DNA of 64,000 nucleotides from Siansivirga zeaxanthinifaciens CC-SAMT-1. Its GTDB lineage: Bacteria; Bacteroidota; Bacteroidia; Flavobacteriales; Flavobacteriaceae. Where the stretch lies: NCBI RefSeq assembly GCF_000941055.1, contig NZ_CP007202.1, forward strand, positions 1,856,001 through 1,920,000, written 5' to 3'. Within the stretch, counting starts at the first letter, position 1. Each line of letters begins with the position of its first letter. Position numbers and translations under genes: made by a program. Shown piece after piece: positions 4,097-58,600 of the stretch. The notes below the pieces were generated by a model. That model searched no databases. It was not told where the DNA came from and worked only from the letters and a program-made list of their open reading frames with translations.

Positions 4097-4113
4097 GTTT
4101 TAATATGAATGTT

Positions 4114-37324: not shown

Positions 37325-38398
37325 TTATTGTTTCTTAAGCATTTCTGGTGTAGCAACGGTTCTAAAACCTGTGTGGTCAGACCCTGAGTCTTCACTTATA
37401 CCCATACGTGCCGAAATTCTAAAACTGGCACAATAAGAAGCATTGCATAAAAAAGACCCTCCTTTTATAACATGTTCTACTTGATATGGATTATCTGGAC
37501 TATATGAAGTATCGGCACCTTTAGGGTTTTTAATTTCTTTCGTTGTGTCTAATTCTTGATAATAATTCACGTTAAATAAATCGCTAGTAATTTCCCAAAC
37601 ATTGCCTAACATATCGTATAAACCAATAGAATTTGGAGAATATGATTTTACAGGCGCAATGAGTTCAAATCCGTCTTTAGATTCATTTTTTATAGGAAAA
37701 ATACCTTGCCAGGTATTGGCTTTTTCATTTAAAATTTCAAAATCATTACCCCAAGTGTATATGTTATCTTGATAAGTTCCTTGTGCGGCTGCTTCCCACT
37801 CGGCTTCGGTAGGTAAACGTCGGTTTGCCCATTCGCAATAAGCTAATGCGTCTTCATAAGCTATGTGAACAACTGGGTAATTATTTTTGCCTTCAATATT
37901 GCTTTCCGGGCCTTCAGGATGTTTCCAATTGGCTCCAATTTTCCAAGTCCACCACTGAGAATAGTTACTCATGTTAGCAACTTGTTTCACATTTTTATTA
38001 AAAATTAAACTACCAGGTTGCAAAATAGAATCATGCGGTTTTGGGGTGCCTTGAGGCAGCTCTTTTTTCATAGATTCCCAATCTATTGGGCGTTCTGCCA
38101 CAGTAACATATTTTGTTGCGTCAACAAAAGTTTTAAATTGTTTGTTTGTAACTTCAGTGACATCAATAAAAAAACCATCAACAGTTACTTTATGTGCGGG
38201 TATTTCACGTTGCATAGCAAATTTATCGCCTGTTTTTGCACCTTGAGTAAAAGTTTTTCCTTCCACCCAAATCATACCAGTTGGTGCTTCAATGTTTTGA
38301 TTTGAAACACTATCGGGGGCTTTTTTTTCCTTACAAGCTATTGTTATTGAAATTAATAAAAATAGGAGAGAAGTTTTTAGGGAAATTGAAGTATTCAT
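37325..38398 (-). CDS. Formylglycine-generating enzyme (aerobic sulfatase-activating), lipoprotein
   Basis: The 357-residue protein has a lipobox (SITIACKEK) and an FGE-sulfatase domain: MIWVEGKTFTQG, EVTNKQFKTFVDATKY, RRLPTEAEWEAAA, GLYDMLGNVWEITSD and IKGGSFLCNASYCASFRISA. Cysteines 318 and 323 match the two copper-binding catalytic cysteines of aerobic FGE. Such enzymes convert the sulfatase active-site Cys to formylglycine. All six sulfatases in this window are Cys-type, so this is their probable maturase. Being a lipoprotein, it would act after export. Confidence 0.88.
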   Translation of the reverse strand: MNTSISLKTSLLFLLISITIACKEKKAPDSVSNQNIEAPTGMIWVEGKTFTQGAKTGDKFAMQREIPAHKVTVDGFFIDVTEVTNKQFKTFVDATKYVTVAERPIDWESMKKELPQGTPKPHDSILQPGSLIFNKNVKQVANMSNYSQWWTWKIGANWKHPEGPESNIEGKNNYPVVHIAYEDALAYCEWANRRLPTEAEWEAAAQGTYQDNIYTWGNDFEILNEKANTWQGIFPIKNESKDGFELIAPVKSYSPNSIGLYDMLGNVWEITSDLFNVNYYQELDTTKEIKNPKGADTSYSPDNPYQVEHVIKGGSFLCNASYCASFRISARMGISEDSGSDHTGFRTVATPEMLKKQ

Positions 38399-38480: not shown

Positions 38481-41400
38481 TTGAAATTACCAGCTCCAAT
38501 ATTTGTCGTTTTTTTTCTTTTTTTTTCAACGTTTATTTTTGCTCAAAACAATTTTGAGTTCGATAAACTTTCTGGCGAAAATATATCTACTCAAAGTATT
38601 ACTTATGCAATTAAACAGGATAGTATTGGTAATATTTGGATAGCATCGGAAGAAGGTGTTATAAAATACGATTCAAAACAAATAAAAATATATAATACTT
38701 ACGATGGTTTACCAGAAAATTTAAATAATAGAGTTACAGCGCTTTTTGTAGACTCTAAACAGCGTGTTTGGATAGGTTTAGAAAATGGATTGTGTCTTTA
38801 TGATAAAGCTTTTGATAAGTTTAATCTTATTCAAAGTGAAATAGATATCAATCCGTCGTTAATTACTTCAATTGCAGAAGACGATACAGGAAACATTTGG
38901 ATTGGCGGTTTTAATGGATTATGGAAAGTTAATAATGAAACTTTAAAACTATCAAAAAAAGGGAATAGCTTAAATATTCAAACCATTGCTTTTAAAAATG
39001 ATATTCTTATTTATGGCACTTTAAACGGATTGTTTTCTTACGATAGTAAAACCGATGTGGTTACTGAAATTCTTGAAAATCAATCGTTAAAAAATATTTC
39101 TTTCATAGGAAATGTTAAAGATAATACCTATGCTGGTTTAAAATCTGGGGCTATTTATATTTTAAATACGAGTTTAACTAGGGCTAATAAAGTCGATTTA
39201 GCATTTCAGATAAAGCATCCTATTAAAGATTTAATAACAGATAATAACTCGAATATTTACATTGCAACCGATGGCGAAGGTATATATTATTTAAATAAAG
39301 ATTTTAAGTTAATTAGTCATTTTAGAGAAAATGTAGATAACCCATTTTCAATTTCAAGTAATGGTGTATATGATATTGAATTTGGCGATGAAAATATTTT
39401 ATGGGTTGCCACTTACAGTGGCGGAATTAATTATTTAGATTTCAATAAAAAGCCTTTTCAACGTTTTAAACATCTTTTAAATACTAACAATAGTATTGCA
39501 ACAGATTTTTCTCGATCTATTGCTGAAGATAAATATGGAAATATTTGGTTTGGAACCACTAAAGGTATAAGTGTTTGGAATCCTAAAAGTAATACTTGGA
39601 AACAGATTCCAGAAATTACGCCTAATAAAAATAAAGAAGACGATATTGTTTTGGCATTAGAATCAGACAACGATTATATGTGGGCTGGGACTTATAATAG
39701 AGGACTTTTTAAAATAAATATTAATAATTTTAGCGCTACCCCTTATACACACGAGACCAATAAAACAATAGATTTAGAGAAAATTTATACTGTTTTTAAA
39801 GATTCAAAAAATAATATTTGGTTTGGCGGAATTGATGGTAGTTTAACAGTTATTAGACAAAATAGTAGAGTAGATGAGTATCCTATTTATCAAATTAAAC
39901 ATCTAACAGAATCTAAATCGGGACATATTTTAGCATCTGGCAGATATGGTATTTACAAAATTAACGATGCGAATAAAGAATTTGAATTAATAGAAAAGCT
40001 AAAGCCCAATAAGGTTAATTTGGCTTATGCAACTATTAATGCAGTGCAAGAAACAACAAATGGAAATTTAGTTCTGGCTACAAACGGTTCTGGTTTGGTT
40101 TTTTATAACGTAAAAAATAAATCTATTAAAAAATTAACTATCGCATCTAATTTACCATCTGATATCGTTCAAGGGGTTCTTTTAGATGATAACATCGTTT
40201 GGGCGAGTACTACAAAGGGACTGGCACAGATAAAAATTACAGAAACAGACACTATTATTAATGTATTCGATAAAAAAGAAGGTATGGCAAGTACCGAGTT
40301 TAACTATGGCAGTTTTGCTAAATTTAGTAACGGTAAATTTGCCTTTGGTGGTAGGGACGGCGTTACTATTTTTAATCCGAAAAATATTTTAGAGAGTAAT
40401 TATAAGCCTAATATTGTTTTTGATGAATTTAAACTTTTTAATAAGGTTATAGATGCAGGTAAAAAACCATTAAGTAAACATGTTAATGAAGTAGATAAAA
40501 TAATTTTAACAGCCAAAGAAAACTCTATAGAATTAGGGTTTACGGGTATCCTGCATAGTTCTGCATCAAAAGTAAAATATTCATGGAAATTAGAAGGTTT
40601 CGACGAAAACTGGTCTGAACCCAGCACTGTAAATTTTGCAACCTATACCAATTTAGCTCCCAATAATTATATTTTTAAAGTTAGAGCTTATAATAAGTAC
40701 GCTACTGTTAGCGACGAAAGGCAAATACAAATAAAGGTACTACCGCCTTGGTGGGCAACAAATCAGGCTTACGTTTTATATGTGTTACTTTTTTTATTAC
40801 TTATTGTGGCTATTGTTCACTTTACAAGTGTTATTGTAAAGAAAAAGAATGCAGACCAGCAAATAGATTTCTTTAATAATATTACACATGAAATAAAAAC
40901 ACCACTAACCATTTTAATTTCATCACTAGATAATATAACTGAAAACATAGGAACGGGCGAAGATTCTAAAAAACGCATAAAAACAACTGTAAAACGCATT
41001 AATTCACTTTTTGAACAAATGCTTAATTTTCAAAAAGTTACTTCGGAAGGTTATGTTTTAAATGAAATATCTGAAATAGATTTAAACACTCATATAAACA
41101 AACGAATTTATAATTTCGGACCATTAACACAGCAAAGTAATCTTCAAATAAAATTTAATAATAATTTTAATGAGCCTTATTTTTATTTCGATAAAGAAGT
41201 TTTCGATAAAATATTTTTAAACCTTTTATCAAACGCCATAAAATACTCGTTCGAAAATGGTACAATAACTATTAATTTGGATAAAACGGCTAAAAATGGG
41301 CTTCAAATTGAAATTATAGATGAAGGTTTGGGTATTCCTAAAGATCAACAAAAGTATATTTTAACACGCTATTACAGAGCCAGAAACGTCATTAATAGTC

Positions 41401-42383
41401 AGCGTCCGGGAACAGGTCTAGGCTTAATGATGGTGAAAAAATTATTAGAAAAAACAGGTGGCAGTATCGATTTTGTGAGTGAAGAAAATAAAGGAACCAA
41501 GTTCACCATTCAATTAAAAAGCTTAAAATATGAGTACGATAAGCAACTACAACAAAAAGAAAGTACTATTGGTACCATTGAAGTTGAAAACGAAGACCGT
41601 TCGGAATTAGATGCTTTTAGCGATAGTAAAATACTAATAGTAGAAGATAACGACGAATTACGACAACTTTTAGTAGATACTTTAGGTGTTTATTTTCAGG
41701 TATTTGAAGCTATAAATGGCAAAGAAGGATTAGAAATAGCTTCACAAATATTTCCCAATATCATCTTAACAGACTTAATCATGCCCGAATTAGATGGTAT
41801 GCAAATGGCCAGACAATTAAAAGATGATATTAATTTAAATCATATACCAGTTTTTATGCTAACAGTACTGCAAAACTCTGCTCAAAAAATTGAAAGCATT
41901 GAAACAGGAATCTCAGAATATATAGAAAAACCCATCGATATTAAGTTTTTGCTAGCCAAAATAATTAATACATTAAAATGGCAGAAAAAATTACGAGATA
42001 AATTCAAGCATGATAACGATTCCGATAATGCTTCATTGTTCCGCAATAAAAACGACCAAGATTTCTTGCAAAATTTAGAAGACAAAATTCTAGAAAATAT
42101 CGAAAACGAATCGTTTTCGGTACACGATTTATCGGGCAGTTTTAGTATAAGTAGAACATCACTCTACATGAAATTGAAAAACTTAGTCGATTTATCACCT
42201 CAAGACTTTATAATACATACCAAATTAAAATATGCTAAAAAACTTTTAATAGAAGGCGATTGTAGTATTAAAGAAGTAGCCTACCGTTCAGGATTTTCAA
42301 ATCCGAAATACTTTAGTACCTCATTTAAAAAGTTTTACAAAATGACACCAAGTGGTTTTTTAGAAAGTTTAAAACAAGAGTAA
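38481..42383 (+). CDS. Hybrid two-component system regulator (HTCS)
   Basis: This 1300-residue one-protein signalling system starts at TTG. No ATG is in frame nearby, and this start gives a good signal peptide (APIFVVFFLFFSTFIFAQ). Domains in order: periplasmic Reg_prop propeller repeats (IWIASEEGV, VWIGLENGL, IWIGGFNGL and more) with a Y_Y_Y domain, one membrane segment (about residues 765-785), HisKA with H803 in THEIKTPLT, an ATPase (NLLSNAIKYS, DEGLGIP, GTGLGLMMV), a receiver with D1098 in LTDLIMPELDG, and an AraC-type HTH (IKEVAYRSGFSNPKYFSTSF). It should sense an oligosaccharide and switch on the locus. Confidence 0.95.
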   Translation: MKLPAPIFVVFFLFFSTFIFAQNNFEFDKLSGENISTQSITYAIKQDSIGNIWIASEEGVIKYDSKQIKIYNTYDGLPENLNNRVTALFVDSKQRVWIGLENGLCLYDKAFDKFNLIQSEIDINPSLITSIAEDDTGNIWIGGFNGLWKVNNETLKLSKKGNSLNIQTIAFKNDILIYGTLNGLFSYDSKTDVVTEILENQSLKNISFIGNVKDNTYAGLKSGAIYILNTSLTRANKVDLAFQIKHPIKDLITDNNSNIYIATDGEGIYYLNKDFKLISHFRENVDNPFSISSNGVYDIEFGDENILWVATYSGGINYLDFNKKPFQRFKHLLNTNNSIATDFSRSIAEDKYGNIWFGTTKGISVWNPKSNTWKQIPEITPNKNKEDDIVLALESDNDYMWAGTYNRGLFKININNFSATPYTHETNKTIDLEKIYTVFKDSKNNIWFGGIDGSLTVIRQNSRVDEYPIYQIKHLTESKSGHILASGRYGIYKINDANKEFELIEKLKPNKVNLAYATINAVQETTNGNLVLATNGSGLVFYNVKNKSIKKLTIASNLPSDIVQGVLLDDNIVWASTTKGLAQIKITETDTIINVFDKKEGMASTEFNYGSFAKFSNGKFAFGGRDGVTIFNPKNILESNYKPNIVFDEFKLFNKVIDAGKKPLSKHVNEVDKIILTAKENSIELGFTGILHSSASKVKYSWKLEGFDENWSEPSTVNFATYTNLAPNNYIFKVRAYNKYATVSDERQIQIKVLPPWWATNQAYVLYVLLFLLLIVAIVHFTSVIVKKKNADQQIDFFNNITHEIKTPLTILISSLDNITENIGTGEDSKKRIKTTVKRINSLFEQMLNFQKVTSEGYVLNEISEIDLNTHINKRIYNFGPLTQQSNLQIKFNNNFNEPYFYFDKEVFDKIFLNLLSNAIKYSFENGTITINLDKTAKNGLQIEIIDEGLGIPKDQQKYILTRYYRARNVINSQRPGTGLGLMMVKKLLEKTGGSIDFVSEENKGTKFTIQLKSLKYEYDKQLQQKESTIGTIEVENEDRSELDAFSDSKILIVEDNDELRQLLVDTLGVYFQVFEAINGKEGLEIASQIFPNIILTDLIMPELDGMQMARQLKDDINLNHIPVFMLTVLQNSAQKIESIETGISEYIEKPIDIKFLLAKIINTLKWQKKLRDKFKHDNDSDNASLFRNKNDQDFLQNLEDKILENIENESFSVHDLSGSFSISRTSLYMKLKNLVDLSPQDFIIHTKLKYAKKLLIEGDCSIKEVAYRSGFSNPKYFSTSFKKFYKMTPSGFLESLKQE

Positions 42384-42508: not shown

Positions 42509-44179
42509 ATGAAATTTAAAGCCTTGTTAATACTTTTTTCTTTAGTATTATGTTCGTGTCTTAACAAACAAAATCAAGAATCAAAACTTGCAAATTCAAT
42601 TAGTGAAAATGTATCACAATCACCAAATATTATATTAGTACTTGCCGATGATTTAGGTTTTTCAGATCTAGGATGTTATGGCAGTGAAATTAATACACCA
42701 AACCTAGATTCATTAGCCAATAATGGTATAAGATACACGCAATTTTATAACACATCTAGATGTTGTCCCACAAGAGCCTCCTTGTTAACTGGTTTATATC
42801 CCCATCAAACGGGTTTGGGTTGGATGACTAGAGTCGATTTGCAACAACCTGGTTATATAGCAGAACTTAACGATAAAAATGTAACCCTGGGAGAAGCGCT
42901 TCAAACGGCGGGCTACTCGACATATATATCGGGTAAATGGCATGTAAATAAAGATGATGAATGTGAACAAGACAGCCCAAAACACAATTGGCCAATACAA
43001 CGTGGTTTTGATGGTTTTTATGGCATATTGAAAGGCGCATCAGATTATTTTAACCCAGATAATCTTTACAATGGGAATACGCATATTAAACCAGAAAATA
43101 ACTTTTATTTTACAGATGCTGTTAATAATACTTCAGTAAAATTTATCGAAAATCATTTTGAGAGCAAAAAAAATCCATTTTTCATGTATGTTGCACATAT
43201 AGCTCCTCATTGGCCCATTCAAGCCAAAGAAGAAGATATTGCAAAATATCAAGGTAAATACATGGAAGGCTGGGATGTATTAAGAAAAAAGCGTTTTGAA
43301 AAAATGAAAAAACTGGGTATTATACCAGAAAACACACTGTTGTCTGAAAAAGACCCAGATATACCAGATTGGGAAACGCTTACCGAAAGCGAAAAAATAG
43401 AAATGGATAAGCGTATGGCTATTTATGCTGCTCAAATTGACTGTATGGATCAAGGTATAGGTCAAATAATATCTACACTTAAAAAACACAAACAGCTTGA
43501 TAATACTGTTATTATGTTTGTCTCAGATAATGGTGGTTGTTTACAACCCATATCTAGAGGGGAGAGCAAAGCGGTTGAAGATTTAGGAAATGAAAAATCG
43601 TTTGAAAGCTATGGGAAACCGTGGGCAAATGTTAGTAATACGCCTTTTAAAAATTATAAAAAGTGGGAACATGAAGGAGGCATTTCTACCCCATTAATTA
43701 TACATTGGCCAAATGGAATTAAGCAAAAAGGAAGTCTTAATAGTAGAGTTGGTCATGTTATAGATTTTATGCCTACGGTATTAGAACTTGCCAATGGGGA
43801 ATACCCAAAAACATATAAAAACAAAGCAGTTTTACCTATGGAAGGAGAAAGCTTGGTTGCTAGTTTTAATTCAGAAAATGCTAAACCTAGGACCCTTTAT
43901 TTTGAACACATTGGAGCCAGAGGTTTAAGGGATGGTAACTGGAAACTCGTTTCCTTAAACAGTGAAAACAAGTATCCCTATTACGAGCAATGGGAGTTGT
44001 ATAATTTGGAAAACGACCGCTCTGAAACACACGATTTAGCCATGAAATACCCAGAAAAAGTAAATGAGTTAGCTATGAAATGGGACCATTGGGCAAAACG
44101 CACGCATGTGTATCCAATCGATGGCAGGTCTTGGGATAAGAAAATTGAAAACCCAACTGGTGTTCAGCTTAAAGAATAA
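42509..44179 (+). CDS. Arylsulfatase-type sulfatase (S1), lipoprotein
   Basis: The 556-residue protein has a lipobox (SLVLCSCLNK), metal ligands in LVLADDLGFSD, and the formylglycine site CCPTRASLLTG with C85 as the residue to be modified. The second metal site is in IMFVSDNGG, and the C-terminal substrate region is SRGES...KNYKKWEHEGG. It belongs to the arylsulfatase A group of family S1. It would release sulfate from a glycan in the periplasm. It is monocistronic, behind the HTCS gene, and ends at a shared terminator. Confidence 0.92.
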   Translation: MKFKALLILFSLVLCSCLNKQNQESKLANSISENVSQSPNIILVLADDLGFSDLGCYGSEINTPNLDSLANNGIRYTQFYNTSRCCPTRASLLTGLYPHQTGLGWMTRVDLQQPGYIAELNDKNVTLGEALQTAGYSTYISGKWHVNKDDECEQDSPKHNWPIQRGFDGFYGILKGASDYFNPDNLYNGNTHIKPENNFYFTDAVNNTSVKFIENHFESKKNPFFMYVAHIAPHWPIQAKEEDIAKYQGKYMEGWDVLRKKRFEKMKKLGIIPENTLLSEKDPDIPDWETLTESEKIEMDKRMAIYAAQIDCMDQGIGQIISTLKKHKQLDNTVIMFVSDNGGCLQPISRGESKAVEDLGNEKSFESYGKPWANVSNTPFKNYKKWEHEGGISTPLIIHWPNGIKQKGSLNSRVGHVIDFMPTVLELANGEYPKTYKNKAVLPMEGESLVASFNSENAKPRTLYFEHIGARGLRDGNWKLVSLNSENKYPYYEQWELYNLENDRSETHDLAMKYPEKVNELAMKWDHWAKRTHVYPIDGRSWDKKIENPTGVQLKE

Positions 44180-44268: not shown

Positions 44269-46257
44269 TTATTTTTTAACTACTCTTTTTGTTATGGAAT
44301 GTTCTTTATTATTAATTCTAACTAAATAAATACCTGTTGGTACCTCAAGGTTAATATCCATTTTAGAACCTGTAATATGTGCTTTTTGTACTAATCTACC
44401 AATACTGTCGAAAATTTCTATACTACCATTATCGGTGTCTGCATTTTCAATGTTAAAGTATAATTTAGACGAGGTTGGGTTTGGATACATTTTTGTTTCG
44501 GTAATACTTTTTGAAACGTTAGAATCAACAAACGAATTCTTAGTCTTAGAACCCTTTTGTGTGCTTCCATTGTTGTATTCAATAATCAATGTAGCACCAT
44601 TACCACCTTCTTTGCTTCCTATGGTCATGAAATTAGATGTTGAACCTTGAAGTATAAAACTAGCAACACCATCTCCTTGTAGTTCATTAATGATATAATT
44701 AGTTACATCTAAATCAAATTCACCTAAGTTATTAAATGAATAAGTATTTATATAACTTCCAGGACTGGGTTTTCCGTTCCATTTTATGGTGTTTTCAGAC
44801 CAATTATCAGTCGAAACAGTGCTTACATCAACATCGCCATTGTTACCGGTGTTGTTTACACGAAGTGTTGCAGAGACAACGTTTGAAATTCCAGAAAGAT
44901 TAAATTTTAAGTAAGCATAGCGTCTGTCTCCATTAGAATTTATTTCTCTAATTTGAAGGTTATTGGCAGAACCATAATTAGTGTTTTTAAATTTTCCGTC
45001 TCTAACATAAGAATCTTCAACTACATCAATGGTAATCGTTTGATTTGAAATAACAGGTGTTAAATCTAAATTAGCAACATTAGAGCTACTAGATTCGTTA
45101 AAAGACCTATCGGTAGCAGTAACATAATAATTGTAATTTTGGTTTGAAATACTATCATCTGTATAGCTATTGGTTCTCAAATTGGATGCTATTTTAATAT
45201 ATGCACCACCATTTTCTGAACGGTAAACTGTGTAAGTATCGAACGCCGTATCGGTTGAAGCATCCCAGTTTAACACAGCCGTTCCCGATTGTTCGGTTAC
45301 TGTAAGGTTGGTAAGTGCATTAGGTGCTACGTTATCTACTGTTGTATAAAAGTAGTCGTTATTAAGTATGGCAGCGCCTTCATAAATCTCGTAACCAGCA
45401 GAAATAGATTTAATCCATAAACTACTTTCTGCTACTTTTAAGTCGGCTTTTGTTCTTTCTTCAGGACTTAAAGGCAAAAAGTCTAAATATTCCACGGTAC
45501 AATCTATAAACTGTTTTAAAGAATGATCTAAATACGGTATCGGGTTAGCGTTATCTATGGGAATAAACTTAATATGTACTTTATCGTTCTTATCCTCATT
45601 AATATCACCAGGAGGATAATCAAAAAACTTGTAACGCACAGCCCATTGGTATGGAACATCGCCGATGTAAACCGTAAAAGGTTTTATAGGCCCATCAGGA
45701 GTTTCTCTGGCAAAGTACCAATATCGGCCACCAGGGTTATCTAAATCTGAAAAATCATCTTGTTCATAACTAACGTTTTGAATTACCAAATCGTAGTCGC
45801 GAACTGCTGGGTCGGGTTCGGAGGTCGCCGTACCACTATCGAAAATAACATTTATGGTAGCCCACCATTTATCGCCTATGTCATTAGCGAAGGCCTGCGA
45901 TGTTTTCCAATTTATTCTCAAATCATGGGTTAAATCCTGGATTTGAACAGGCATACCACAAGCTGCTACATTACCCGGGTAATAGGTTCCACCAGCTTTA
46001 TAGCCACCTACAGTACCACTTGGGTAGCCATCAAAGCTGGTCCCGCCTTGGTTCGTGTAGTCTAAACTAAAAGCAGCTCCAAGCGCATCTACTTGCCCAG
46101 GATTGTAAGTCATTGGGCTGCCTTCATTAAAAACAGGATTGGTAAGTCCGAAATTGTGGTTAGACTTAATAAGTGTGTTTTGTTTTGTTACTGTTGTTTG
46201 TGCATAAAATAGTTGAGTGCACAAAACTAATGCTAATAATGTAATAGTTTTTTTCAT
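44269..46257 (-). CDS. Exported GH12-like / fibronectin III / CBM96-like protein with T9SS tail
   Basis: The 662-residue protein has a signal peptide (1-20). Residues about 60-308 look like a GH12 (clan GH-C) sandwich. GYPSGTVGGYKAGG and CGMPVQIQDL match the family start; YDLVIQ (155-160) lines up with the nucleophile box YELMIW but has Asp156 for Glu; SISAGYEIYEGAAILN (285-299) matches the acid/base box with Glu290. A fibronectin III domain (308-398), a DNRLRE/CBM96-like carbohydrate-binding domain (405-562: EDSYVRDGKFKNTNYGS, YLKFNLSG) and a T9SS type A tail (588-662) follow. It should be secreted or surface-bound. The GH12 reading is my own and needs a fold comparison; it may be an enzyme with altered chemistry or a binding protein. 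Confidence 0.7.
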   Translation of the reverse strand: MKKTITLLALVLCTQLFYAQTTVTKQNTLIKSNHNFGLTNPVFNEGSPMTYNPGQVDALGAAFSLDYTNQGGTSFDGYPSGTVGGYKAGGTYYPGNVAACGMPVQIQDLTHDLRINWKTSQAFANDIGDKWWATINVIFDSGTATSEPDPAVRDYDLVIQNVSYEQDDFSDLDNPGGRYWYFARETPDGPIKPFTVYIGDVPYQWAVRYKFFDYPPGDINEDKNDKVHIKFIPIDNANPIPYLDHSLKQFIDCTVEYLDFLPLSPEERTKADLKVAESSLWIKSISAGYEIYEGAAILNNDYFYTTVDNVAPNALTNLTVTEQSGTAVLNWDASTDTAFDTYTVYRSENGGAYIKIASNLRTNSYTDDSISNQNYNYYVTATDRSFNESSSSNVANLDLTPVISNQTITIDVVEDSYVRDGKFKNTNYGSANNLQIREINSNGDRRYAYLKFNLSGISNVVSATLRVNNTGNNGDVDVSTVSTDNWSENTIKWNGKPSPGSYINTYSFNNLGEFDLDVTNYIINELQGDGVASFILQGSTSNFMTIGSKEGGNGATLIIEYNNGSTQKGSKTKNSFVDSNVSKSITETKMYPNPTSSKLYFNIENADTDNGSIEIFDSIGRLVQKAHITGSKMDINLEVPTGIYLVRINNKEHSITKRVVKK

Positions 46258-46493: not shown

Positions 46494-47981
46494 TTATTCG
46501 GGTTGTATGTTTTTGTTGTATTTGGTATGAAGTAATTCACTCAGAGTTTTAACTTGCTCTTTATATTCTGGTTCTTGAGAAACATTAATATTTTCATCGG
46601 GATCAATATCATGATCAAATAACATATTTGCCATCATCGAATTATCTTTGTTGTTTAAATATTCGGTGTAAGCAAATCTTTTTGTTTTTAAAGTGTAGCC
46701 GTTTAAACGTTTAATTAAAACACTTTCTTTTCCTTCTAGATTTGGATTATTAATTATAGGAACTAAACTGTTACCATCTAATTGATCTTCTGGTAATGTT
46801 AAACCACATAGTTCTGCCAATGTAGGGTAAATATCTACCAATTCTACTAAAGCATTTGTAGATGCATGTTTAGTTTTATTTGGTAGTTTAATAAGTAAAG
46901 GAATTTTAGCAGAGGTGTTATGGTTTGTAAATTTAGCCCATTCGGTATGTTCTTGTAAGTTGTACCCATGGTCTGCCACTAAAATAACTACAGTATTTTT
47001 ATCTAATTCTAAACTTTTTAAAGTACCCATAATTTCACCTATTAGCGCATCTACATAACTTACAGTGGCATAATAACCATGTATTAATTGTTTAGCTACA
47101 CTATCGTTTACCGGGCCTTTTTCGGGAATAAACAAATATTGTCTAAGTTCTGGAGAATTGCACACAGACATTTCTGGAGCATTTTTAGGAACAAAATTAT
47201 TATAGGGCTGTTTAATGCTTTCTTGCGGGTATAAATCCCAGTATTTTTTTGGTGCGTTAAAAGGTAAATGGTTTACTATAAATCCTGCAGTTAGGAAAAA
47301 TGGTTTGTTGCTTTTCTTTAACTTTTTTAAATCTCGAATAACTTTTTTCGTCATTAGGCCATCAATGTATGTTGAATCGCTTACATCTGCCATTTCATAA
47401 GCTGGTCCTGTACCAGTTTCTTGGTATAATTTAATGTTTTCTGGAAGTTGATAATCACGCCACAAAGATTGCCAATAATCGGTAGGCGATAAGCCTTTAT
47501 CGTTCGCATCAAAAGCATAAGGGCGCCAAACTTCATCCCAATCGTTTTCTCTATCATCTAAATGATGATAAACTTTTCCGTTAGAAATGGTAGTATATCC
47601 ATTATTTTTAAAAAGCTGCGGCAGCGTTATAGCATCGGGCGTTTCTTGTTCTACAAATGTATTGTAATTTAAAAATCTATTTTTGGTTGGATACATTCCT
47701 GTAATCATGCTAGCTCGAGATGCACCGCAAACAGGAACATTGCAATAGGCATTGTTAAATAATAAACTAGTAGATGCTAACGCATCAATATTTGGGGATA
47801 TTATTTGTTTTTTACCATAACATCCAAGTTCTGGACGTAAATCATCCATGTAAAGCAATAATACATTTGGTTTGGTAATAACATTGGTTTCTTTTACTTC
47901 TTTGGCTTCTTTACATGATAAAATTACCATGAGAAGACACCATAAAAAGTACTTAGATTTTAAATAAAGTTTATTTTTCAT
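46494..47981 (-). CDS. Iduronate-2-sulfatase-like sulfatase (S1), lipoprotein
   Basis: The 495-residue protein has a lipobox (MVILSCKEA), LLLYMDDLRPELGCYG metal ligands, and the motif CGASRASMITG with C85 as the formylglycine residue. The Ala at the usual Pro position is an accepted variant. VVILVADHGYNLQEHTEWAKF holds the second metal site (read as LVADHGYNLQEHTEWAKF). Architecture and the final DPDENINVS region resemble iduronate-2-sulfatases. It is divergent from susC across a region with a perfect dyad. Confidence 0.9.
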   Translation of the reverse strand: MKNKLYLKSKYFLWCLLMVILSCKEAKEVKETNVITKPNVLLLYMDDLRPELGCYGKKQIISPNIDALASTSLLFNNAYCNVPVCGASRASMITGMYPTKNRFLNYNTFVEQETPDAITLPQLFKNNGYTTISNGKVYHHLDDRENDWDEVWRPYAFDANDKGLSPTDYWQSLWRDYQLPENIKLYQETGTGPAYEMADVSDSTYIDGLMTKKVIRDLKKLKKSNKPFFLTAGFIVNHLPFNAPKKYWDLYPQESIKQPYNNFVPKNAPEMSVCNSPELRQYLFIPEKGPVNDSVAKQLIHGYYATVSYVDALIGEIMGTLKSLELDKNTVVILVADHGYNLQEHTEWAKFTNHNTSAKIPLLIKLPNKTKHASTNALVELVDIYPTLAELCGLTLPEDQLDGNSLVPIINNPNLEGKESVLIKRLNGYTLKTKRFAYTEYLNNKDNSMMANMLFDHDIDPDENINVSQEPEYKEQVKTLSELLHTKYNKNIQPE

Positions 47982-48221: not shown

Positions 48222-51200
48222 ATGAAAAAATACTTATGCATCATTTTGTGCGTTGTATCTACAACTATTTTTGCGCAAGTAAGCGTGCTTAAAGGGAAAG
48301 TAACAGACAATTCAAATTTCCCTCTGCCAGGAGCATCTATTATTATTAAAAACACAACTCAAGGAGCGGTTACAGATATCGATGGTGATTTTACCTTAGA
48401 ATTCTCTAAAAGACCTGCAACCCTTGTTGTAAGCTATTTAGGTTTTATTACTAAAGAAATTGTAATTCAAAACGAAAAAGAAATAGCTATTACATTAGAA
48501 TCAGACGAACAAAAATTAGATGAGATTGTAGTTATTGGTTATGGTGAAGTGCAACGTAAAGATATTACAGGTTCGGTAGCGACTGTAAAACCAGAAGAGG
48601 ATAGGGTAGCCCAATCACAAAGTGTTGAGAGCTTAATACAAGGTCTTGCAGCTGGTGTTTATGTACAACAAAATGGTAACGAACCAGGAGCGCCTGCCAG
48701 TATTAAAATTAGAGGACTTAATAGTTTAACAGGAAATACAGAACCATTATATGTTATAGATGGTGTAATTGTAGATTCTGCTACCGAAGATACGCTAGAT
48801 CCACTTTCGGGAGGAAACAGTTATTTAGCACCGCAAAGTGGTATATCTGGAATTAATCCTAGAGATATTGAAAGTATTGAAGTACTTAAAGATGCATCTG
48901 CAACTGCAATTTACGGTTCTAGAGGTGCTAATGGTGTTATTCTTATTACCACTAAAAAAGGTAAAAGCGGTAAAACGAAATTTAACTTTACCACTTTATC
49001 TAGAATAGGGACTGTTACAAACGATATTGAAGTTTTGGATACAGAAACTTATACTAAATATGGTAACGAAGTAAGAGCTAACCAAGGTTTTAATCCATTA
49101 TATTATCAATATCCTGATGGCAGCATCGCTTATTTTGATACCGATGAAGCTTTCATGATTGCTAATGCAAACACCATTGAAAGAATACAAGGTGTAGATT
49201 GGAGCGACGATACATACCGTTTAGCCTACACAAGAAATTACAGATTATCGGCTTCAGGTGGAACAGATACTGGTAATTATTATATCGCTGGAGGGTATTT
49301 AAATAACGAAGGTACTATTCCGCGTTCTTTTGCTAAAAGTGTCGATTTTGTTGTGAATTTAAATAACGATTTAAGCGATAAATTAAAATTAGCAACCAAA
49401 GTGTCTGCTACTTTTGTAAATAATTCAGCTTCTAAGGGTACCGATAATTTAGGTGGTACTAACAACAACTTAGTAAGACAAATTATATCTGGCTCACCAA
49501 TTTTAGCTTTTTCAGATAATATTAATACAGACGACTTTGAAGAGGCTTTAGATGGCCCAAGAGCATGGATTGAAGATTACGACGATTTATCTAAAGAAGT
49601 ACGTGTTTTAGGGTCTTTGAAATTAGATTATAAATTATCTGATATGTTTACCTACCGTGTGCAATTTGGTGCAGATTACAGAAATAAAGAACGTAAAGTA
49701 TGGTATGGTACAGGTTTATTTAGAGGTAGCCAAGTAAATGGTGAAGCCGGAATAAGTACTTTACAACGTTTTAGATACAATTTAGATAACACCTTAATGT
49801 TTAAAAAACGTATCAATAAAAACAACCGAATTAACGGTACTATTGGAGCAATTATCGACCAAAGTCAGGCGCAATACACTACAAATCAGGCGGCAGATTT
49901 TCCAAATAAAGACTTACGTGCCGATGGTATTTCTTTCGGACAAGTATTTCAACCTTTATTTTTCAATAAACAAAACGAATCTATTGTTTCTTTCTTAGGA
50001 CGATTTAATTATACCTTGTTTGATAGATATTTATTCACAGCAACCTACAGAGCCGATGGTAGTAGTAAATTTGCTGAAGGTAAACGTTGGGGGCATTTCC
50101 CTGCATTCGCTTTTGCATGGAAATTAAATGAAGAACCTTTCCTTAGAAAAATTGAAAGTTTATCTGAAGCTAAATTACGTTTAGGTTGGGGTTTAACAGG
50201 TAAGCAAGGTATTCCAAATTACAGAACTTTAACACCATTCGGTCCAACACAATCACCATATTCTAACTCAGAAGGTGGCGCTTTAACAGCTATTGTACCA
50301 ACAAATTTAGCTAACCCAGATTTAACATGGGAAACTACAAGTCAATACAACGCTGGTTTCGATTTAGGGTTCCTAGATAACAGAGTTACATTAACAACCG
50401 ATGTTTATTATAAAGAAATTTCAGATTTATTACTAAATGTAGAAATTGGACCATCAACAGGGTTTTCAAACTATTATGCAAACCAAGGTGATTTAATTAA
50501 TAAAGGAATTGAGTTTAGCCTTTCGGCAGATGTTATTTCTAACGAGAAATTTAAATGGACAGTTTACGGAAACGTAGCATTTAACAGAAACGAAATTTCT
50601 AGATTAGGCTTACCACCAGCACCATTTGGTACACAAACTTATAGTGCCTTTTTAGGACGTCAAATTTCTGGAGGTAATTACTTTAAAACAGAAGCTAATA
50701 TTTTTATTGAAGGTCAGGCACCAGGTTTATTCTATGGTTATGCAACCGATGGTATAATTTCTAACGATACAGAATTAGCAAATGCTGCTACATTTAACGG
50801 AATTAGCCCACAATTAGGTGATGTAAATTTAGTAGACCAAAACAACGATGGTATTATTAACAATACAGATTTAACCATTATTGGAGATCCAAACCCAGAT
50901 TTTAATTACGGCTTTGGTTCAAATGTAGAATACAACGGATTGTCTTTAGGATTCTTTTTTAACGGAGTGCAAGGAAATCAAATCGCCAATGGTAACTTAT
51001 TACGTGAAGGCTACGCCGATACGAATACAACAAACATAAGAAAAGAAGCTTATTTTGATGCTTGGAGACCTACAAATGTAAATGGTTCTTATCCAAGAGT
51101 TGGTTATAATTTAGCTGCCGATACTGGTTTTACAGACAGATTAATTGAAGACGGTAGCTTCCTAAGATTAAGCTACATCACTTTAGGTTACGATATTCCT

Positions 51201-51392
51201 GTTAAAAACGACAAGTTTATAGAAAGTGCTTATGTATCGTTATCTGGACAAAATTTATTGTTATTCACAAAATATAGTGGTTTCGATCCTGAAGTTAATA
51301 GTTTTTCTTTCGATCCAGGACGTGTTGGTATTGATTGGAACTCATTTCCAAATCAAAGATCATTCTCTTTATCATTAAACTTAACTTTTTAG
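48222..51392 (+). CDS. SusC/RagA-type TonB-linked outer membrane transporter
   Basis: The 1056-residue protein has a signal peptide (YLCIILCVVSTTIFAQ) and a carboxypeptidase-like N-terminal domain (LKGKVTDNSNFPLPGASIII). The SusC hallmark box is LDEIVVIGYGEVQRKDITGS, followed by plug segments (IKIRGLNSLTG, IEVLKDASATAIYGSRGANG) and the beta barrel ending in SFSLSLNLTF. Together with the following SusD it forms the pedal-bin importer for oligosaccharides. Its operon continues through susD, GH3 and two sulfatases with short gaps. Confidence 0.96.
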   Translation: MKKYLCIILCVVSTTIFAQVSVLKGKVTDNSNFPLPGASIIIKNTTQGAVTDIDGDFTLEFSKRPATLVVSYLGFITKEIVIQNEKEIAITLESDEQKLDEIVVIGYGEVQRKDITGSVATVKPEEDRVAQSQSVESLIQGLAAGVYVQQNGNEPGAPASIKIRGLNSLTGNTEPLYVIDGVIVDSATEDTLDPLSGGNSYLAPQSGISGINPRDIESIEVLKDASATAIYGSRGANGVILITTKKGKSGKTKFNFTTLSRIGTVTNDIEVLDTETYTKYGNEVRANQGFNPLYYQYPDGSIAYFDTDEAFMIANANTIERIQGVDWSDDTYRLAYTRNYRLSASGGTDTGNYYIAGGYLNNEGTIPRSFAKSVDFVVNLNNDLSDKLKLATKVSATFVNNSASKGTDNLGGTNNNLVRQIISGSPILAFSDNINTDDFEEALDGPRAWIEDYDDLSKEVRVLGSLKLDYKLSDMFTYRVQFGADYRNKERKVWYGTGLFRGSQVNGEAGISTLQRFRYNLDNTLMFKKRINKNNRINGTIGAIIDQSQAQYTTNQAADFPNKDLRADGISFGQVFQPLFFNKQNESIVSFLGRFNYTLFDRYLFTATYRADGSSKFAEGKRWGHFPAFAFAWKLNEEPFLRKIESLSEAKLRLGWGLTGKQGIPNYRTLTPFGPTQSPYSNSEGGALTAIVPTNLANPDLTWETTSQYNAGFDLGFLDNRVTLTTDVYYKEISDLLLNVEIGPSTGFSNYYANQGDLINKGIEFSLSADVISNEKFKWTVYGNVAFNRNEISRLGLPPAPFGTQTYSAFLGRQISGGNYFKTEANIFIEGQAPGLFYGYATDGIISNDTELANAATFNGISPQLGDVNLVDQNNDGIINNTDLTIIGDPNPDFNYGFGSNVEYNGLSLGFFFNGVQGNQIANGNLLREGYADTNTTNIRKEAYFDAWRPTNVNGSYPRVGYNLAADTGFTDRLIEDGSFLRLSYITLGYDIPVKNDKFIESAYVSLSGQNLLLFTKYSGFDPEVNSFSFDPGRVGIDWNSFPNQRSFSLSLNLTF

Positions 51393-51403
51393 AATTCACA
51401 GTT

Positions 51404-52924
51404 ATGAAAAATATAAATGCAATTATAGTATTATTTGTATCACTAATAACATTTGTTAGTTGTGATACCGTTCTGGATGAACAACCAGAAACTTTCTTCA
51501 ATGAAGAACAAATTTTCTCGTCTGAAGAAGGCGTAGAATCTGCAATTAACGGATTATACCAAAGTTTTGCAGACCCAGGATACCATGGTTCTTCCATACA
51601 CGGATTGGTGGCGCCATTCTCTGGTAAGTTTTATTCTAACCAAGGTGCTAGTCAAGATGCAACCAGTTTAAATTGTTTACCTAACAATACTTGGTTAATA
51701 CGTTTATGGCCAGCCATGTATTCTACCATCAATGTTTCTAACGTTATTATTCAGAATCTAGAAAATTCAACATTACCATTAGCAAATAAAGATATTGCTT
51801 TAGGTCAGGCTTATTTTATTAGAGCTGCTACCTACTTCGATTTAGTTCGTTATTTTGGTGGTGTACCATTAAAAACATCACCAACAACAGCACAAACATT
51901 GCATACACCAAGAAGTAGTGTAGAAGATACCTATGCTTTAATTATTGAAGATTTCGAAAAAGCAAAGCAATTACTTCCTAATGCAGGTGAGTATTTAATA
52001 GACCGACCAATTAAAACAGCTGCCAATGCTTATTTAGCAAAGGTATACTTGACACTTGCCAGTGCAAGTAACGATAGAGCTATGTGGCAAGCTGCTTACG
52101 ATGAAGCCATTCAGGTTTACGGAAAATATACGTTAACACCTACTTATGCAGAATTATTCGAATTAGGAAATGAAAACACTAGTGAGTCTATTTTTGAAAT
52201 TCAATATGGTGCTAACGGTGCTGTTAGAAATTCAGATGTTATTAGAATTTATACTCTAAAAGATTATTATAATTACGATACTTTTGGCCGTGTAAGACCA
52301 AATAAAGAAACTTACGATCAGCACGTAAACCAATATCCTGGAGACCCTCGTATTGATGCTACTTTTATTGCAAACTCCTATACAACAGTTGCTGGAAAAG
52401 TAGTTAAATTATATCCTGCACAAAGTAATGGTAACGATGGTTATACCGCCATAAAAAAATACCTAGAACCAAATTTTAATGGAACAACGGCAAACACCAA
52501 TTTAATTAAAATTAGATATGCCGATGTGCTACTTATGTTAGCTGAAATTGAAAATGAGTTAAACGGTCCTGCTAACGCTTACCAATATGTTAATGAGTTT
52601 TTAACCCGTGCCAGAAATACCGGTTCTTCTATAGCTGCAGAGCCAGCAGATTGGAGTGGTTTAACACAAGAAGAATTTAGAGAGCGTATTATGTATGAAA
52701 GACAATATGAATTACTTGGTGAAAACCATGAGTTTTTCGATACAAGACGCCGTGGTTACGAGTATTTCTTAAGGGAAGTAATAGAAAAACATAACAATGG
52801 TCCAAAAGGAAACAGAGATTTTGTTTACCCGGTAAGTGTAAAAAATATGTTATTACCAATACCATCCATTGAAATTTCAGGAAACCAAAAAATTACTCAA
52901 GCAGATCAAAACCCTGGTTACTAA
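51404..52924 (+). CDS. SusD/RagB family surface glycan-binding lipoprotein
   Basis: The 506-residue protein starts at MKNINAIIVLFVSLITFVSC with a lipobox cysteine. I reject a longer frame from 51335 because it overlaps susC by 58 bases and lacks a signal. SusD features are YFIRAATYFDLVRYFGGVPL, the TPR-like helical core, and the C-terminal RERIMYERQYELLGENHEFFDTRRRG. It is the lid of the SusCD complex and captures the glycan outside the cell. It is 11 bases behind susC. Confidence 0.95.
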   Translation: MKNINAIIVLFVSLITFVSCDTVLDEQPETFFNEEQIFSSEEGVESAINGLYQSFADPGYHGSSIHGLVAPFSGKFYSNQGASQDATSLNCLPNNTWLIRLWPAMYSTINVSNVIIQNLENSTLPLANKDIALGQAYFIRAATYFDLVRYFGGVPLKTSPTTAQTLHTPRSSVEDTYALIIEDFEKAKQLLPNAGEYLIDRPIKTAANAYLAKVYLTLASASNDRAMWQAAYDEAIQVYGKYTLTPTYAELFELGNENTSESIFEIQYGANGAVRNSDVIRIYTLKDYYNYDTFGRVRPNKETYDQHVNQYPGDPRIDATFIANSYTTVAGKVVKLYPAQSNGNDGYTAIKKYLEPNFNGTTANTNLIKIRYADVLLMLAEIENELNGPANAYQYVNEFLTRARNTGSSIAAEPADWSGLTQEEFRERIMYERQYELLGENHEFFDTRRRGYEYFLREVIEKHNNGPKGNRDFVYPVSVKNMLLPIPSIEISGNQKITQADQNPGY

Positions 52925-52952: not shown

Positions 52953-55331
52953 ATGAAAATCAATAAAATCAGTATAACTGCTATAATCTCATGCACTTTA
53001 CTTTTTGCGGCTTGTAAAAATGAAACCAAGTCTACAACAAATGATGGTTCACCTTTATATTTAGATCCTACAGCTTCGGTTAACGATAGAGTAGAAGATT
53101 TAATGTCTCGAATGACATTAGAAGACAAAGTTTATCAAATGTGTCAATACGTTGGTTTAGAACACATGAAAGCAGCAGAATCTAAAATTTCAGCAGAAGA
53201 ATTAGATAAAAATGATGCTTTAGGCTTTTACCCGGGTGTTTTGAGTGATAGCGTTGGGCGATTAGCGGCTGCTGGTAAAATTGGTTCATTTTTACATGTT
53301 GTAACACCAGAAGAAGCTAACTATTTACAAAAATTAGCATTACAGTCGCCTTTAAAAATTCCATTATTAATAGGTATCGATGCTATTCATGGTAACGGAT
53401 TGGTAAGTGGTTCTACCATTTACCCATCTCCAATATCGCAAGCAGCCACTTTCGATGATGCTTTAGTAAAAGAAGGAAGCAGACAAACGGCTTTAGAAAT
53501 GCGTGCAAACGGTATGCATTGGTCGTTTACACCAAATATAGATGTATTACGCGATCCGCGTTGGGGACGAACAGGAGAAACTTATGGAGAAGATCCTTTT
53601 TTAGTTGGTAACATGGGTGTTGCAACAATTTCTGGTTTGCAATCTGATGATTTTACAGGTAGTGAAAATGTTATTGCTTGTGCTAAACATTTAATTGCTG
53701 GTAGTTCTTCTATTAATGGTTTAAATGCCGCACCAACCGATGTATCTAAGCGTACTTTATTTGAAATTTTCTTACCACCATATCGACGTGCAGTTCAAGA
53801 AGCTAATGTGTTTTCAATTATGGCTGCTCATAACGAGGTTGCTGGTATGCCAGGACACATGGATAAGTTCATGATGAACGATTTAATGCGCGAGCGTTGG
53901 GGCTTTAATGGCTTTTATGTAAGCGATTGGAATGATGTTTCTCGTATTGCTTATTGGCATCATGTTGCGAAAGATTTTAAACAATCTATTGAATTTTCTG
54001 TTAATGCGGGTATGGACATGAATATGCATGGTCCAACATTCGATAAACTTTTAATTGAATTAGTTAACGAAGGAAAAGTTGATGTTGCTCGTGTAAATTA
54101 TGCTTGTAAAAAATTATTAGAAGTTAAATTCCGTTTAGGCTTGTTTGAAAATCCTTTTGTAGATATAGAAAAATCGAAAACAGTTAATTTCTCTGAAGCT
54201 CATCAAAAAAATGCTTTAGAACAAGCGCGCAGATCTATTGTTTTACAAACTAACAAAAACAATGCCTTACCACTTTCAGAGAATGGAAACGGAAAAACTA
54301 TTTTTATAACCGGCCCAAATGCTAACAACCAAACAACTTTAGGCGATTGGGTATCACCACAACCAGAAGAAAATGTAGTTACTATGGTAGAGGGCATCAC
54401 TCAAATTGGTGAAGCTAAAGGTTATAAAGTAAATTATTTCGATTCGGGAGACCGTTCTAAAGAAATTACAGATGCTAATATCGATTTAGCAGCACAAAAA
54501 GCTAAACAATCAGATATAGTTATTTTGGTTCTAGGTGAAAATTCTTTCCGTCACGACTGGCCTCGTAAAACAACAGGTGAAAACATTGATAGAGCGACTT
54601 TAAAACTTTCTGGGAACCAGATGAAGTTAGCTAATAAAATTTTAGATTTAGGTAAAAAAGTTATTGTTGTTTACATTAGTGGAAGCCCAATTGCCGAACC
54701 AGGTCTTGAAAATCGAGCAAACGCTGTTTTAAATACTTGGGAAAGTGGTGCTTTTGCAGGTCAGGCTGCAGCCGAGATATTATTTGGTCAAGTAAATCCT
54801 TCAGGTAAATTACCATTAACAGTACCTCGTAGTGTGGGACAGTTACAAATGGTTTACAACCACAAACCAACGGCTTACATCCACAAGTACAATACAGAGA
54901 AAAAGGTGCCATTACATCCATTTGGTTTTGGTTTAAGTTATACCAACTTTGAATTTTCAGAGCCTAAATTATCTAAAGATGTTTTTGCTGGTATTGACGA
55001 TGTTATTAACGTAACTGTTGAGGTTTCAAATACAGGTGCTCTTGATGGTGAAGAAGTGGTACAATTATATATTCACGACGATATTAGTTCGTACACCAGA
55101 CCAGTAAAAGAACTTAAAGGATATAAAAGAATCGCTTTAAAAGCAGGAGAAACCAAATCGGTAACCATTCCTGTTAAAGCAGAAAGTTTAGCGATGTACG
55201 ACAAAGATTTCAATTTTGTTGTAGAGCCTGGAACTTTTACAATAATGACGGGTAACTCATCTGCAGATAAAGATTTAAAAACTACAACAATATCGGTAGC
55301 AGAAGGTATTGTACTCGATAAAAACAAATAA
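52953..55331 (+). CDS. Glycoside hydrolase family 3 (exo-beta-glycosidase), lipoprotein
   Basis: The 792-residue protein has a lipobox (CTLLFAACKN). The GH3 N-terminal barrel has GIDAIHGNGLVSGSTIYPSP, DPRWGRTGETYGEDP, the substrate KH pair at 245-246 and the nucleophile D325 in GFYVSDWNDV. The second domain (IFITGPNANNQTTLGDW) and a fibronectin III-like C-terminus (EVSNTGALDGEEVVQLYIH) complete the usual three-domain layout. It should cut beta-linked glucose or xylose from non-reducing ends in the periplasm; which one is not decided. It is the third gene of the susC operon. Confidence 0.94.
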   Translation: MKINKISITAIISCTLLFAACKNETKSTTNDGSPLYLDPTASVNDRVEDLMSRMTLEDKVYQMCQYVGLEHMKAAESKISAEELDKNDALGFYPGVLSDSVGRLAAAGKIGSFLHVVTPEEANYLQKLALQSPLKIPLLIGIDAIHGNGLVSGSTIYPSPISQAATFDDALVKEGSRQTALEMRANGMHWSFTPNIDVLRDPRWGRTGETYGEDPFLVGNMGVATISGLQSDDFTGSENVIACAKHLIAGSSSINGLNAAPTDVSKRTLFEIFLPPYRRAVQEANVFSIMAAHNEVAGMPGHMDKFMMNDLMRERWGFNGFYVSDWNDVSRIAYWHHVAKDFKQSIEFSVNAGMDMNMHGPTFDKLLIELVNEGKVDVARVNYACKKLLEVKFRLGLFENPFVDIEKSKTVNFSEAHQKNALEQARRSIVLQTNKNNALPLSENGNGKTIFITGPNANNQTTLGDWVSPQPEENVVTMVEGITQIGEAKGYKVNYFDSGDRSKEITDANIDLAAQKAKQSDIVILVLGENSFRHDWPRKTTGENIDRATLKLSGNQMKLANKILDLGKKVIVVYISGSPIAEPGLENRANAVLNTWESGAFAGQAAAEILFGQVNPSGKLPLTVPRSVGQLQMVYNHKPTAYIHKYNTEKKVPLHPFGFGLSYTNFEFSEPKLSKDVFAGIDDVINVTVEVSNTGALDGEEVVQLYIHDDISSYTRPVKELKGYKRIALKAGETKSVTIPVKAESLAMYDKDFNFVVEPGTFTIMTGNSSADKDLKTTTISVAEGIVLDKNK

Positions 55332-55332
55332 T

Positions 55333-56967
55333 ATGCTCAACAAAATTAAATTATTTACCGCCTGTACTTTGGTCATGTTTTCCTGTAAGGAAGGTGTAAA
55401 AGAACAGGCTTCAAACGAACTCGTTAAAGCAGAAGCTGTGCGCCCTAATATTATTTATATCATGGCCGACGATTTAACAACCCAGGCTATAAGCGCATAT
55501 GGTGGTATTTATAAAGATATTGCTCCAACACCTAACATAGACAGATTGGCTAAAGAAGGTATGTTGTTCCAGGATGTACTTTGTACCAATGCTATTTGTG
55601 GTCCTTCAAGAGCTGCAATCTTAACTGGTAATTATAGTAACATAAACGGGTACTATAAAAATGAGAGCGGTGGTAAATTTGATGAATCTCAATGGACATT
55701 TCCTCAGGAGTTTCAAAAAAATGGCTATCAAACATCTTTATTTGGAAAATGGCATTTAGGTACCGAGCCTAAAGGGTTCGATATGTATAAATATCATAAT
55801 TCAGCAGGGCAACAAGGTCATTATTGGGATCCTGTTTACAATGAAAATGGTGTTGATGTTAAAGAGAAAGGGTATTCAACAAACTTGAGTACAGATTTCG
55901 CTATCAATTGGTTACAAGAGGGCAGAAAGCAAGATGCGCCTTTTATGATGTTGTTACAATATAAAGCACCTCACAGGCCTTGGGAGCCAGATACCAAATA
56001 CGAAACGCTTTGGGATGATATTGAAATGCCTTATCCTGCCACTTTTAACGACGATTATAAAGGTCGTGAATTAACAGCAGGCGATACAGAAATGACTATG
56101 GATTATTTCTCACGTCGCGATATGAAGTTGGAAGAGCCAAAAAATTTAAAAGGAAAAGAGAAAATAAAATGGGCTTTTTATGGTGCTAAACCTGGAGAAA
56201 TTGTTCAGCCAGAAGGTATGAACGAAGAAGAAGGTAGAAAATGGCGTTACCAAACTTATATTAAAGATTATTTAGCTTGTGTTAAATCGGTAGACGATAA
56301 TATTGGTCGTATTTTAAAATATTTAGATGATAATGGTCTGGCAGAAAACACAGTAATTGTATTAACATCAGATCAAGGTTTTTATTTAGGAGATCATGGT
56401 TTTTTCGATAAGCGCTTTATTTACGAAGAATCTTTAAGAATGCCATTTATTGTTAAATATCCTAAACTGGTAAAAGCGGGGTCTAAAAATGAAGATATTA
56501 TTAGTAATATCGATTTTGCTCCAACACTTTTAGATTTAGCAAATATTAAAACAACACAGCCTATTCAAGGAGTAAGTTTTAAATCTAATTTAGAAGGCAC
56601 TACACCAATCGATTGGCAAAAAGGAATGTATTATCACTATTACGAATTCCCTTATTGGCATCATGTGCAACCACATTATGGCATACGAACTCAAAAATAT
56701 ACCTTAGCTCATTTCTATTATAATATTGATGTTTGGGAGCTTTACGATTTAGAAAAAGATCCGCAGCAATTAAACAATATTATTAATGCGCCAGAATACG
56801 CAAATGTTGTTTCAGATTTAAAATCGCAACTAAAAGAGTTAATGAAAAAATACGAAAACGATAAAACTTTAGCTGATTTTAGAGTGATTACCGATAAAGA
56901 TTTTGGTTCGATTGTAGATCATCAAGACGAAGAAACATCAGTGCAAGATATTTTAACTAATAAATAG
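55333..56967 (+). CDS. Sulfatase (S1), lipoprotein
   Basis: The 544-residue protein starts at MLNKIKLFTA, one base after the GH3 stop, with lipobox LVMFSCKEG. Motifs are IYIMADDLTTQA, the formylglycine site CGPSRAAILTG with C89, GKWHLG, and VLTSDQGFYLGDHGFFDKRF for the second metal site. The C-terminal part (YYHYYEFPYWHHVQPHYGIR and WELYDLEKDPQQLNN) is of the DUF4976 type found in heparan and related sulfatases. Exact sulfate position unknown. It is in the susCD operon. Confidence 0.93.
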   Translation: MLNKIKLFTACTLVMFSCKEGVKEQASNELVKAEAVRPNIIYIMADDLTTQAISAYGGIYKDIAPTPNIDRLAKEGMLFQDVLCTNAICGPSRAAILTGNYSNINGYYKNESGGKFDESQWTFPQEFQKNGYQTSLFGKWHLGTEPKGFDMYKYHNSAGQQGHYWDPVYNENGVDVKEKGYSTNLSTDFAINWLQEGRKQDAPFMMLLQYKAPHRPWEPDTKYETLWDDIEMPYPATFNDDYKGRELTAGDTEMTMDYFSRRDMKLEEPKNLKGKEKIKWAFYGAKPGEIVQPEGMNEEEGRKWRYQTYIKDYLACVKSVDDNIGRILKYLDDNGLAENTVIVLTSDQGFYLGDHGFFDKRFIYEESLRMPFIVKYPKLVKAGSKNEDIISNIDFAPTLLDLANIKTTQPIQGVSFKSNLEGTTPIDWQKGMYYHYYEFPYWHHVQPHYGIRTQKYTLAHFYYNIDVWELYDLEKDPQQLNNIINAPEYANVVSDLKSQLKELMKKYENDKTLADFRVITDKDFGSIVDHQDEETSVQDILTNK

Positions 56968-56972
56968 TAGTA

Positions 56973-58565: not shown

Positions 58566-58569
58566 TTTA

Positions 58570-58600
58570 AAAAGCGATGATATTAATTATCGCTTTTTTT
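58570..58600 (+). terminator. Intrinsic terminator after the sulfatase operon
   Basis: AAAAGCGAT / ATCGCTTTT forms the stem with a ten-base loop and a T-tract, just behind the stop at 58565. Confidence 0.8.

Follow-up and report, generated by a model that had tools for sequence, protein, structure and literature searches.

Glycoside hydrolase (GH) family 12, whose members are retaining endo-hydrolases of β-1,4-glucans, shares clan GH-C with GH11, and the accessible part of one study calls five of its residues (W22, E116, M118, W120 and E200) absolutely conserved and reports < 1% of activity for the D99A, W22A and M118A mutants (PMC4680936). The accessible text of two further studies gives GH10, GH3 and sulfatases together as the signature of predicted sulfated-xylan loci in marine Flavobacteriia (PMC6794258, PMC6298971). 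Here we describe an open reading frame (ORF) of Siansivirga zeaxanthinifaciens CC-SAMT-1, at 44269-46257 on the minus strand of a 64-kb window (the whole stretch analysed, 1856001-1920000 of a 3.3-Mb contig), which encodes an N-terminal GH12-like domain next to such genes. We lean towards reading this domain as a GH12-type β-jelly roll, likely a new family of clan GH-C, that would serve as a cell-surface endo-glycosidase on a sulfated β-glycan backbone, with D156 as the likely nucleophile and E290 as the likely acid/base. As far as the accessible text of the two locus studies goes, the published loci and ours have in common SusC/D, GH10, GH3 and several sulfatases; the first published variant carries the sulfatase domain inside the GH10 protein, whereas GH10 and sulfatases are separate genes in S. 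zeaxanthinifaciens, whose locus also adds two GH12-like genes and a GH5. No mention of a GH12-like domain was found in the accessible parts of these papers (PMC6794258, PMC6298971), and among the titles and abstracts retrieved by a literature search for a GH12-like or clan GH-C family none describes such a domain.

The domain spans residues 20-310 (~290 residues, 45328-46200; all features of this gene lie on the minus strand). A sequence-only reading had found no obvious label for the first ~300 residues, and indeed residues 1-310 match no Pfam and no NCBIfam model; the same reading had aligned them with GH12 through four motifs, all present in the translated ORF (GYPSGTVGG at 77-85, GMPVQ at 101-105, YDLVIQ at 155-160 and AGYEIYEG at 287-294). 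Its assignment is borne out by fold searches, in which GH12 came out on top both for the predicted model of the domain itself and for that of a distant stand-alone relative. The nearest folds of the predicted models are GH12 and GH11, so that the models share the clan GH-C fold and, more closely, the GH12 β-jelly roll; the 43 GH12 rows listed had higher Z than the GH11 folds. The GH12 relatives retrieved include T. reesei Cel12A (1h8v), R. marinus Cel12A (1h0b) and the GH12 domain of A. cellulolyticus GuxA (7mks). Identity between GH12 and the domain is only 9-18%, and the domain is ~70 residues longer, its extra stretch holding the invariant R208-Y209-K210 (45628-45636) and K226.

Sequence searches reach GH12 with difficulty. 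PF01670, the GH12 model, was not found in the 662-aa protein at E up to 1, in the S. zeaxanthinifaciens genome, among 25 of the 27 families matched by 78 relatives or among 25 of the 29 matched by another 40. A PDB sequence search with the protein alone matched nothing but its C-terminal modules at E up to 1, and a 15-row domain alignment had a sole match, to an unrelated protease (E 0.15); only a wider family profile (A4) reached GH12, after an earlier faint signal at E 0.02. Viral structures gave no match at E up to 0.001. For the GH11 family there was no match above the cut-off in the genome; a weak sub-cut-off one (locus L039, E 2.2e-4) falls on an OmpA-like-looking 638-aa ORF and was taken as chance. 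The UKD domain of CelAly was considered as well; according to the accessible text it became CBM113, a relative of CBM96, and is distinct from the GH12-like domain (PMC13235733).

Catalytic positions were assigned by aligning the family with GH12 profiles built from fungal rows, from bacterial rows of the same phylum (13 distinct pieces; PF01670 is carried by 10 of 395 genomes) or from both combined, the two bacterial-only profiles being the same 13 rows with different reference rows. In the resulting pairs, E290 (codon GAG, 45388-45390) falls on the acid/base E200, with a posterior of at least 0.96 in all four GH12 profiles, and D156 (codon GAT, 45790-45792) falls on the nucleophile E116 of T. 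reesei Cel12A, again in all four and with a posterior of 0.91-0.97 for the fungal and combined profiles. Y78 pairs with Y60, V158 with M118, Q160 with W120 (V158 to Q160, 45778-45786) and F43 with W22. N136/N95 and D140/D99 (D140 at 45838-45840, posterior 0.57-0.84) are paired in most profiles; with the enlarged family profile, the bacterial-only profiles shift both pairings. The domain retains the positions of the GH12 residues that bind sugar at -2 (D99), -1 (Y60) and +1 (N95). The catalytic pair of clan GH-C matches in place by alignment, with Asp for one Glu; for retaining pairs in general, one abstract gives a carboxylate distance of about 4.5-6.5 Å (PMC10167657). The sequence-only reading had anticipated a retained acid/base Glu, an Asp in place of the nucleophile and a Gln in place of the aromatic residue after it; the first and last are recovered by profile-profile alignment, and the second holds firmly with the fungal and combined profiles and weakly with the bacterial-only ones. 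In hhalign, the fungal-only GH12 profile gave a probability of 1.2% (local) or 2.5% (global), not significant alone, the bacterial-only rows 5.4 and 5.6%, and the combined rows 84.7%; the enlarged family profile gave 1.1, 13.3, 13.5 and 47.2%, the last with the combined rows. The combined profile without insert columns gave 20.2%, and in a control on that profile, none of 120 randomised versions (60 with single columns shuffled, 60 with blocks of 10 shuffled) scored above 22.3, compared with 31.2 for the real profile.

A search with residues 1-310 retrieved 122 proteins, of which 120 were listed (our own included), all with E ≤ 2.8e-46; a further query, built by aligning distant members, retrieved 146, of which 120 were listed and 45 of these were new. 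The resulting 167-row alignment holds our domain, 164 database proteins (two 98% identical to our domain, one the second copy in the same genome) and two pieces obtained by translating fetched loci, both near duplicates of listed proteins. Across rows that are 35-98% identical to the S. zeaxanthinifaciens domain, W131, N136, R153, D156, V158, R208, Y209, K210, K226, K283, E290 and Y292 are invariant (167 of 167); D140 (Thr in P0261) and Y203 are each kept in 166 rows and H228 in 165. Only one of the five absolutely conserved GH12 residues, E200, is kept throughout the family: the M118 position is always Val, and the W22 position (residue 43) is F in 43, Y in 29, D in 21, W in 20 and L in 19 rows, with others in the remainder. 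Residue 160 (45778-45780), at the W120 position, splits the family into Q (81 rows), E (44), M (21), K (15) and six others (A in 3, F in 2, L in 1), and its identity could mark subfamilies with different substrates.

Database names of the relatives include 'hypothetical protein' and 'T9SS type A sorting domain-containing protein'. Twenty-nine of the 164 database proteins are essentially the domain alone (≤ 360 aa), nine of them with a strict lipoprotein-signal pattern and further ones with a Cys after a hydrophobic start. Eight of the 120 listed proteins carry a GH5 behind the domain. An archaeal GH5-GH12-GH12 glycosidase, in the accessible part of its description, likewise combines GH5 with domains of the GH12 fold in a single chain; its GH12 domains have catalytic glutamates, whereas the fused relatives have the Asp form, placed ahead of GH5 (PMC12265866). 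The family looks rare: with scoring limited to the top few candidates in each genome, it was found in 2 of 395 genomes of the phylum and 3 of 299 of the family Flavobacteriaceae, S. zeaxanthinifaciens being counted in both. The cultured Yeosuana aromativorans is among the carriers.

The 662-aa product starts at an ATG with a signal-peptide-like N-terminus (residues 1-20, MKKTITLLALVLCTQLFYAQ, 46198-46257), judged from the sequence and not by a predictor program; the predicted model has a helix at residues 2-14, with lower confidence there. The modules that had been expected after the N-terminal domain are all present: a fibronectin III-like module (residues 320-386, 45100-45300) by a PDB sequence match to 3mpc (E 1.2e-4), and a CBM96 (DNRLRE) module (residues 407-560, 44578-45039, E 9.9e-32) and a type IX secretion system (T9SS) type A sorting tail (residues 590-660, 44278-44490, E 1.7e-12) by Pfam.

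Around this gene, Pfam identifies a sulfatase-modifying-factor (FGE)-like protein (37325-38398, minus strand), a hybrid two-component sensor/regulator (38481-42383, plus), which is likely the regulator of the locus, a sulfatase (42509-44179, plus) and, upstream on the same strand as the GH12-like gene, another sulfatase (46494-47981, minus). On the plus strand there follow a SusC-like TonB-dependent receptor (48222-51392), a SusD-like protein (51335-52924), a GH3 (52953-55331), three sulfatases (55309-60111, with ORFs at 55309, 56973 and 58885) and a GH10 (61961-63061), whose frame is interrupted by a single in-frame TAA at codon 136 (62366-62368). The frame of the third sulfatase (58657-60111) encodes a signal peptide at its start and is broken directly behind it by a single in-frame TAA, beyond which it is open again; its listed ORF begins only at 58885, without the N-terminal part. 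Both interruptions lie inside 4 kb of one locus. Between these two genes, 60147-61958 (plus) encodes a 603-aa T9SS protein with no catalytic Pfam match, relatives of which adjoin the GH12-like gene in loci L013 and L014 (663 and 776 bits); the protein could be a further enzyme of the pathway that lacks a label. Beyond 63 kb lie three more sulfatases, a second GH10, a second GH12-like gene, sugar-isomerase-like and Calx-beta genes and a GH5. The second GH12-like gene (P0025; 10773-12764, plus, of fetched locus L017), ~6 kb past the window end, also has CBM96 and a T9SS tail, and its domain is 64% identical to the first; a sugar-isomerase-like gene follows it, with the GH5 one gene further on. 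The closest PDB match of this GH5 is 4u3a, Endoglucanase H (E 8.3e-45), which we take to be a broad β-1,4-glycanase.

Sixteen other loci carrying the domain were compared; L035 repeats the genes of L001 and was excluded from this count, the stretches available for L003, L005 and L013 are short, that of L007 breaks off at the gene, and in L002, L007, L008, L011 and L012 the neighbours were compared with the genes of the S. zeaxanthinifaciens locus only. GH10 relatives are found near the domain in L001, L004 and L014. In L005, a sulfatase and the GH12-like domain share a single 1204-aa ORF (1168-4779); because the counterparts in the related L009 are adjacent separate ORFs, the fusion may reflect a lost stop. 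Where neighbours were identified, the recurring theme is sulfated or otherwise complex heteroglycans.

We infer from the residue pattern that the active site is working but re-tuned rather than decayed, and the domain would probably cut a sulfated sugar chain. The protein would be exported and anchored at the surface through T9SS, and its CBM96 would bind the acidic chain; D156 would attack the backbone as nucleophile in place of the GH12 Glu, with E290 as acid/base and a retaining stereochemistry assumed by analogy, and the sulfate or carboxylate groups could be accommodated by the conserved basic residues R153, R208, K210, K226, H228, K230 and K283. SusC/D would then import the fragments, the neighbouring sulfatases would strip the sulfate, and GH10, GH5 and GH3 would finish the degradation. 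The backbone at this locus is most likely β-1,4-linked and xylan-like, as judged from the neighbour genes only; the other loci argue for a wider substrate range in the family, xylan being the best guess for S. zeaxanthinifaciens.

Several observations weigh against this proposal. The posterior of D156/E116 is only 0.19-0.30 with the two bacterial-only profiles, and the hhalign probability hinges on the profile pair, from ~1 to 85% overall. Asp is one methylene shorter than Glu and should weaken the nucleophile in a GH12 scaffold. M118 and, in most rows, W22 are replaced, both of them essential in GH12 on glucan, and the residue at the N20 position, P41, is not conserved; the substrate would therefore not be ordinary glucan. 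Sulfatase relatives are near the domain in only 7 of the 16 other loci (6 of the 14 named loci and L037, not L036): in F. alvei (L010) GH78, GH95 and GH2 are nearby and no sulfatase was found, two fucosidases are near the domain in L009, and GH9 and GH78 in L037.

The sequence-only reading had left open whether the domain is an enzyme or a glycan-binding module. A non-catalytic, GH12-derived module that targets its partners (GH5, sulfatase or T9SS) to the polymer would fit the eight GH5 fusions, the one sulfatase fusion, the changed nucleophile and the two tryptophans of the GH12 cleft that are mostly or wholly lost. We regard it as unlikely, if the least so of the alternatives. Both carboxylates and N136 are kept in every row and D140 in all but one, unlike a decayed site; 29 proteins are the domain alone, and the S. 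zeaxanthinifaciens protein already has a CBM96. Because D156 and E290 are invariant and domain-only proteins exist, the enzyme is now favoured.

Such an enzyme might also be an inverting hydrolase on the GH12 scaffold, in which the shorter D156 holds water as general base and E290 is the acid. The Asp fixed in all rows goes along with Val in place of M118 and the loss of W120, which points to joint remodelling of the region around the scissile bond; yet the nucleophile distance could just as well be regained through shifts of the backbone, and we know of no inverting member of clan GH-C, which makes this scheme rather doubtful. Its fullest version is similarly speculative: a new clan GH-C family whose retaining GH12 machinery changed in concert (nucleophile Glu to Asp, Met to Val, Trp to Gln or Glu) to act on a sulfated backbone and turned to inversion, a first in the clan. 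A polysaccharide lyase on the jelly roll, with a Tyr/His base and an Arg/Lys/Asn neutraliser for β-elimination of a uronate chain, could draw on the conservation of R208, Y209, K210, N136, Y203 and H228 and on the founding of CBM96 on an alginate-binding module; it appears improbable, as the nearest folds are GH12 and GH11 and both carboxylates, which a lyase does not need, sit on the GH12 catalytic pair. An ordinary but divergent GH12 glucanase or xyloglucanase, for which the fold, the acid/base Glu, the Y60 position, in most profiles those of D99 and N95, and, in the accessible text, the existence of GH5-GH12 multidomain glucanases (PMC12265866) would speak, is very improbable given the change of four of the five residues called absolutely conserved (PMC4680936, accessible part) in all or most rows, the absence of a PF01670 match in the protein (E up to 1) and its genome, and the sulfatase surroundings.

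The favoured assignment is thus an endo-glycosidase of a separate family. The domain resembles GH12 in its predicted fold and aligned acid/base position, yet it is not to be filed as GH12, because the nucleophile and three further defining residues differ (Asp for Glu, Val for M118, Gln, Glu, Met or Lys for W120, and mixed residues for W22); a new family of its own, next to GH11 and GH12 in clan GH-C, is likely the better description. If true, the family would be a test case for whether evolution can exchange a clan-wide catalytic Glu for Asp, and annotators could label proteins that now have only generic names. Sulfated-polysaccharide loci hold many sulfatases and, to our knowledge, few enzymes known to cut the still-sulfated backbone; the domain family is a candidate for this step and would supply such loci with an endo-enzyme so far unrecognised.
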